Under the pieces are notes generated by a model. The model was not told the DNA's origin. It saw only the letters and a program-made list of their open reading frames with translations, and did no database searches. This document shows positions 31,380 to 32,084 of a stretch of DNA of 32,963 nucleotides, piece by piece. Origin of the DNA: Candidatus Nitrosotenuis sp. GTDB lineage: Archaea > Thermoproteota > Nitrososphaeria > Nitrososphaerales > Nitrosopumilaceae. The stretch covers positions 1 through 32,963 of the forward strand of contig JAENJF010000011.1 of the NCBI GenBank assembly GCA_016844685.1. Direction: 5' to 3'. The stretch's first letter is position 1. Every line of letters starts with the position of its first letter. The position numbers were made by a program, and so were the translations under genes.

Positions 31380-31483
31380 AGCCCGATAGTCTAGCGGCCA
31401 AATGAATTTCAGGTTATGGATTTCGCGCTCTGGATCTTATGAGAGGATACGCGGAGACGGCAGTTCGAATCTGCCTCGGGCTA
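31380..31483 (+). tRNA. tRNA-Gln (CTG) with two predicted introns (31402-31417 and 31434-31448)
   Basis: Acceptor AGCCCGA/TCGGGCT + A73; T arm GGCAG-TTCGAAT-CTGCC; anticodon stem TCGCG/CGCGG; loop CTCTGG|A after intron removal; D stem GTCT/GGAT forms only after removing ATGAATTTCAGGTTAT. Confidence 0.88.
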
Positions 31484-31484
31484 C

Positions 31485-32084
31485 TTATCTAGATGCTTGT
31501 GCTATTCTTTCTAGCTCGTTCTTTTTCCTGACAGATGGAGCGTTTCCATCATTTGTTGATGCAGCGATAAGATGGTCTGCAAGGTATTCTTCCATTGACC
31601 TTGGATTTGAAAATGTTGCTTCTTTTACGCCATCTGCGATAAATCTCAATGCCAAGTCAACTCTTCTTAGAGGAGATACATCAACTGATACATGGTATGC
31701 AGTGCCGCCGTAAACTATTCTTGTAGTATCCTCGTTTGGCGCCGAATATTCGATTGCTCTAACTAGTACCTCGACTGGATTCTTGCCAGTCTTTAGGTGA
31801 ATTATATCAAATGCTGCTTTTACGGTATTGATTGTACGAGCTTTTTTACCGCCCATTCTTCCAGTGTTCTTTGCATATTTTTTTCCAAAGTGCATTAGCT
31901 TGTTTGCAAGTCTCTCTGCAATGTTTACTTCGAGTTTGTTGAACCGCTTTAGTGAGGAGCGGCCAAATGTCAACGGCATTACTGATTTTTTAAGTGAGAT
32001 TGTGGTTTTGAGTCCAGGATCCTTTATCTCGATTCCAGAAAGATCCCATTTTCTAAATAACAAAAGATTTGGTGTGTCTGTCAT
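31485..32084 (-). CDS. Ribosomal protein uS7
   Basis: 199 aa; VNIAERLANKLMHFGKKYAKNTGRMGGKKARTINTVKAAFDIIHLKTGKNPVEVLVRAIE. Confidence 0.96.
   Translation of the reverse strand: MTDTPNLLLFRKWDLSGIEIKDPGLKTTISLKKSVMPLTFGRSSLKRFNKLEVNIAERLANKLMHFGKKYAKNTGRMGGKKARTINTVKAAFDIIHLKTGKNPVEVLVRAIEYSAPNEDTTRIVYGGTAYHVSVDVSPLRRVDLALRFIADGVKEATFSNPRSMEEYLADHLIAASTNDGNAPSVRKKNELERIAQASR

Follow-up and report, generated by a model that had tools for sequence, protein, structure and literature searches.

A tRNA-Gln(CTG) gene with two putative bulge-helix-bulge introns in a Nitrosotenuis-like archaeon and the history of its D-loop intron

Archaeal tRNA genes with more than one intron have been known for a long time (PMC4090602, PMC3218864). 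In Thermoproteales such as Pyrobaculum a tRNA gene can carry two to three introns at canonical and non-canonical sites and, as far as this work is summarised in a later paper, similar introns have spread recently to many sites (Sugahara 2007/2008, via PMC4090602). For Thaumarchaeota, 107 non-canonical introns have been reported together with a dedicated model in tRNAscan-SE 2.0; these introns are short, lie in the tRNA body, are cut within 3-nt bulges that flank a 4-bp helix and often occur together with an intron at position 37/38 (PMC8450103). The tRNA-Gln(CTG) gene analyzed here has the same features and does not differ in kind from these thaumarchaeal introns, which are already known and of which it is one more case. 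What it adds is the long conservation of one intron at one site, held across the order in contrast to the recent spread in Thermoproteales, and a clean series of losses. A preliminary description of the DNA was right that multiple and non-canonical tRNA introns are known in archaea, but its framing of them as mostly a matter of Thermoproteales does not fit a host that is itself a thaumarchaeote (Nitrososphaerota), a group in which such introns are documented. In the open-access literature searched, we found no paper on the history of this gene. Based on comparative sequence evidence, we regard it as highly probable (about 95%) that the locus is a functional tRNA-Gln(CUG) gene whose transcript contains two archaeal bulge-helix-bulge (BHB) introns.

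The window, i.e. the whole stretch of 32,963 nucleotides that was analyzed, belongs to a Nitrosotenuis-like MAG of the Nitrosopumilaceae (1.33 Mb, 84% complete, 153 contigs). A tRNA covariance-model search of this genome returned the unspliced gene at exactly 31380-31483 on the plus strand (Rfam RF00005, 38.6 bits, cut-off 29, E 6.9e-7), the alignment placed insertions in the D loop and the anticodon loop, and homologues were found in about 120 genomes of the family. Removal of 31402-31417 and 31434-31448 leaves 73 nt, which ARAGORN calls as a clean tRNA-Gln(ctg). Exon 1, AGCCCGATAGTCTAGCGGCCAA (31380-31401, plus strand), provides the 5' strands of the acceptor and the D stem and the D loop up to A21. 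Exon 2 (31418-31433, plus strand) consists of the 3' strand of the D stem (GGAT), the 5' strand of the anticodon stem (TCGCG) and the anticodon loop CTCTGG with the anticodon CTG at 31430-31432, and exon 3 (31449-31483, plus strand) continues with A38 of the anticodon loop, the 3' strand of the anticodon stem, the variable loop, the T arm, the 3' strand of the acceptor and the discriminator A. Sequence and coordinates agree to the base with the preliminary description. The convergent gene for ribosomal protein uS7 (31485-32084, minus strand, Pfam PF00177) adjoins the tRNA in most loci of the family and served as syntenic landmark for comparing the locus across genomes; beyond it follow uS12 and a NusA-like KH protein. 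In the 84% complete host genome, tRNA-Gln is represented by a single CTG gene and a single TTG gene without introns (L019), and a second intact tRNA-Gln(CTG) was not found in it.

The first intron, ATGAATTTCAGGTTAT, comprises 16 nt (31402-31417, plus strand) and interrupts the D loop at position 21/22. Its BHB motif extends from 31396 to 31418 on the plus strand and consists of a central helix of GGCC (31396-31399) and GGTT (31412-31415), the bulges AA/A (31400-31402) and AT/G (31416-31418), where the slash marks the cut, and the inner hairpin TGA-ATT-TCA (31403-31411). These elements had originally been recognized by eye, and the unconstrained minimum-energy fold of the unspliced RNA likewise contains the GGCC:GGUU helix, the AAA bulge of 3 nt and the hairpin of UGA and UCA. 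In this predicted precursor an exon-side helix, formed by the D stem and one extra pair, is present as well, and the modelled motif is in this respect fuller than previously described.

To this we can add a comparison of 78 distinct D-loop introns from the family and the order, which follow a common pattern of GGYC, AA/N, an inner hairpin, a 4-nt stretch that pairs with GGYC, and NN/N. All four central pairs are formed in 75 of them, and the 3-nt bulges are kept while the sequence drifts; the three exceptions belong to one lineage (g5) with an intron of 11 nt and an incomplete helix. The third central pair is C-G in 35, T-A in 27 and T-G in 16 introns. Pairing in the central helix reaches 99.0%, compared with a mean of 95.1% and a maximum of 97.1% in 2000 re-dealings of the 3' strands among the sequences, and a shift of the 3' strand by 1-3 positions lowers it to 3.5-61%. 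As only few columns of this helix vary, and the fourth pair never does, the covariation comes mostly from the third pair and from the inner hairpin, which is 3 bp or longer in 56 of 70 introns (5.9 expected from shuffles) in variants such as TGA/TCA, TAA/TTA, CAA/TTG, CTC/GAG and CGGGCGC/GCGCCCG. With a standard tRNA after its removal, a 4-bp helix between 3-nt bulges and covarying pairs, intron 1 has the sequence signature of a BHB intron. The ribozyme core of group I and group II introns is considerably longer than 100 nt; this class was rejected because the two inserts measure only 16 and 15 nt and the window had no hit to an Rfam intron family. The smallest form of the D-loop intron that we found, 11 nt with no inner hairpin, occurs at three loci of g5 (L110, L121, L124) in genomes of about 0.8 Mb.

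The second intron, ATCTTATGAGAGGAT, has a length of 15 nt (31434-31448, plus strand), lies at the canonical position 37/38 and is present in all 106 genes of the family whose exons and introns could be delimited. Like other archaeal introns at this position it pairs with the first bases of the anticodon, but the central helix has mostly 3 instead of 4 bp. In the window the motif is of this relaxed type, with a 3-bp helix between U33-C34-U35 and G-G-A of the intron, which is in line with the imperfect BHB noted earlier. The same three loop bases pair with RGA near the 3' end of the intron in 58 of 65 distinct versions, and only 13 of the 65 have a strict 4-bp helix, the window copy not being among them. 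A strict register with pairs to positions 32-35 was rejected, as it breaks at C34 in most taxa. Relaxed BHB forms are recognized substrates of alpha2beta2 enzymes (PMC4090602, PMC6379350), and therefore intron 2 would work like a BHB intron.

From a practical point of view, simple callers miss or mis-name this gene. ARAGORN with default settings called no tRNA at 31380-31483, neither in the window nor in the unspliced gene, with introns allowed it reported a false His(atg) for the unspliced gene, and after removal of the D-loop insert alone it recognized Gln(ctg) with a 15-nt intron. An Rfam search of the whole window at the gathering threshold with fast filters also missed the gene, which was found when the region was restricted or the genome was searched. 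The suspicion that default gene callers overlook the gene is correct for ARAGORN, but tRNAscan-SE 2.0 includes an intron model for Thaumarchaeota (PMC8450103), so that the gene need not escape current archaeal callers.

Our search of the family covered 151 genomes, most of which contain the gene; genera are labelled g1 (Nitrosotenuis), g9 (Nitrosotalea), g12 (containing Nitrosopumilus), g15 (Nitrosarchaeum), g16 (Cenarchaeum) and so on. Among the 106 splittable copies, 88, from every one of the 21 genera represented, have a D-loop intron at one shared site, with lengths from 11 to 25 nt. Exon sequence has hardly changed across more than 20 genera, whereas the introns drift yet keep the motif. 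In g12 only three of 21 copies have the D-loop intron, and the other 18 show the natural empty site AGYGGTCAA/GGAT, which is the exact join predicted from cuts after the second base of each bulge, as proposed in the preliminary description. Outside the Nitrosopumilaceae but within the order, an intron at this position is also found in f3, f6, f9 and f10, which are other families, and the class-level outgroups G173 and G182 have an uninterrupted D loop and the 37/38 intron only. Thus, the D-loop intron dates back at least to the ancestor of these order members, and the Nitrosopumilus copies without it have lost it.

Gains and losses were counted on a small tree of the ribosomal-protein locus (uS7, uS12 and the NusA-like KH protein), in which copies lacking the intron occur only within one supported Nitrosopumilus clade. 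The tree, too weak for an exact number of losses, requires a minimum of five changes, two of them forced by well-supported branches, and therefore more than one loss, or loss followed by re-acquisition, is likely. In the TTG gene, which has no intron, the D loop has the sequence TAGNGGTCAAG, as at the empty site of Nitrosopumilus, so that loss mediated by a reverse transcript and loss by a short conversion tract would look alike here.

In many genomes of f3 (L301, L302, L304, L305, L309, L310, L312, L314 and others) the D stem is interrupted by a third intron, located at 10/11, for example AGCCCGGTCG/AACCAATTTTGTTGGTGCCGAA/TCTAG, where a helix of CGGT:GCCG and the bulges CG/A and AA/T can be recognized by eye. 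A 10/11 intron is also present in f2 and f5 (L316, L325), there together with a D-arm insert that, read by eye, apparently lies at 24/25 and not at 21/22 (example GGA/AGGGCTAGATCCCCCTTGAG/TACCAGG, CAAG:CTTG). It is possible that this insert represents intron sliding or an independent intron.

A different picture was obtained for g19, a genus with reduced genomes of 0.8-1.2 Mb that is probably Nitrosopelagicus. BLAST with the two-intron gene gave no convincing match in g19; complete loss of tRNA-Gln(CTG) was rejected, as a CTG gene with a TTG-type body is present. In G019 this gene has no intron and differs from the tRNA-Gln(TTG) of the same genome at 3 of 72 positions, compared with 22 positions and a gap relative to the spliced window gene, and the tRNA sequences of the CTG and TTG genes of G036 are identical outside the anticodon. 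At every g19 CTG locus examined the gene is found at the old place, between the same upstream ORFs and uS7, uS12 and the KH protein. Such intronless, TTG-bodied tRNA-Gln(CTG) genes were observed at L378-L387, L390, L395 and L397-L400. The simplest account of these sequences would be an in-place conversion by the intronless TTG sister gene, which erased both introns while the CTG anticodon was kept or regained. We consider it likely that tRNA introns of these archaea are lost by two routes, namely by precise loss of a single intron in Nitrosopumilus and by replacement of the whole body by tRNA-Gln(TTG) via gene conversion in g19, where a sister tRNA would have acted as the donor. In some Nitrosopumilus genomes and in G022 (L138, L139, L140) the TTG gene has a T arm and an acceptor of the CTG type, with a 3' end (GGCAGTTCGAATCTGCCTCGGGCTA) that is identical in both genes and differs between them in the genome of the window. 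This is a sign of exchange between the Gln tRNA genes in the direction opposite to that in g19.

The host genome also encodes two splicing-endonuclease proteins (PF01974). The catalytic-type subunit of 177 aa resembles the solved archaeal catalytic subunits 2cv8, 3p1z_B and 3ajv_B and contains the Tyr and the His motif, the His motif reading GPGIDHAPY, and the second subunit is, judged by its sequence, devoid of the catalytic His. A gap-free alignment to 3p1z_B, from the splicing endonuclease of A. pernix, places a Lys of the catalytic subunit at residue 44 of 3p1z_B. In A. pernix, K44 is the residue of the specificity loop that is tied to a broad substrate range (PMC6379350), and an alpha2beta2 enzyme has been reported for Thaumarchaeota (PMC4090602). 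With two paralogous subunits and the Lys in the predicted specificity loop, the host enzyme fits the broad-specificity alpha2beta2 type.

For the proposed pathway we infer that the gene is transcribed, that the precursor is cleaved, in whichever order, and ligated, and that the product is charged. In the precursor, GGCC of the D loop would pair with GGUU of intron 1 and UCU of the anticodon loop with GGA of intron 2. The two-subunit endonuclease would then release intron 1 by a cut behind the second base of each of its bulges and intron 2 by a cut at either end, and the three exons would be joined by a ligase to the 73-nt cloverleaf. G18 and G19 are needed in the mature tRNA for the contact between D loop and T loop; as intron 1 pairs with both, it would have to be removed for the tRNA to fold. 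On an evolutionary scale, the D-loop intron is an old element, present in several families of the order. It would have been kept by descent while selection maintained no more than its splicing motif, and some lineages have lost it.

The presence of an intronless tRNA-Gln(TTG) (L019), which could in principle cover CAG codons by wobble, leaves room for the idea that the gene is a dead copy disabled by the D-loop insert. Decay is not expected to leave exons almost unchanged across more than 20 genera, next to introns that vary in sequence and retain the motif. Moreover, the stems stay paired with compensated changes in the anticodon stem (CGGCG/CGCCG, CTGCC/GGCAG, CCAGG/CCTGG), and the lineage that has neither intron still maintains a gene with CTG anticodon at the locus, and we consider a pseudogene very unlikely.

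It is also hard to reconcile the data with a transcript in which the 37/38 insert is the sole intron and the 16 nt of the D loop are retained as an enlarged loop. ARAGORN can force a cloverleaf that keeps the insert, but only as the false His(atg), and nothing direct speaks for retention. The insert ranges between 11 and 25 nt within the family, and most Nitrosopumilus lack it and have a standard loop, which is difficult to understand for a part of the mature tRNA; what the relatives conserve is the helix of the splicing motif, in which G18 and G19 are sequestered. Retention is in our view extremely improbable. The fragmentation of the MAG into 153 contigs might also raise the question of an assembly error or a recent insertion restricted to this lineage. 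Relatives with complete genomes on a single contig (G017, G034, G076 and others) have an insert at the same site, and so do named isolates, among them Nitrosotenuis chungbukensis MY2 and Nitrosotalea devanaterra. Contig NZ_AVSQ01000013.1 of N. chungbukensis MY2 and the G082 locus have the same tRNA sequence. An artefact or a recent event is already refuted by these genomes, and its probability is practically nil.

One tRNA gene can be followed here through four states, with three introns in many f3, two in most Nitrosopumilaceae, one in most Nitrosopumilus and none in g19, so that gain, upkeep and loss of archaeal tRNA introns become testable at a single gene. One locus of Nitrosotalea sp. t3.48 (L134 in G097, identical to L223) has a 14-nt deletion between two GGATCT repeats that removes the anticodon of tRNA-Gln, and this is either an assembly error or a dead gene. 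Furthermore, two other tRNA genes of the host genome, both under the Rfam cut-off, appear by eye to contain introns in the tRNA body. A tRNA-Glu(TTC) (L144, G000:C55:948-1007, 21.3 bits) has an apparent 16-nt intron in the T loop near 59/60, read as GGGTCCAAA/TTCTTCGTGATGGAAA/TCCCGG with TCCA:TGGA, and a tRNA-Arg(CCT) on the minus strand (L143, G000:C60:24701-24764, 25.3 bits) has an apparent D-loop intron, read as AG/AGTCAATTATGACGCGAA/ACATGGATA.
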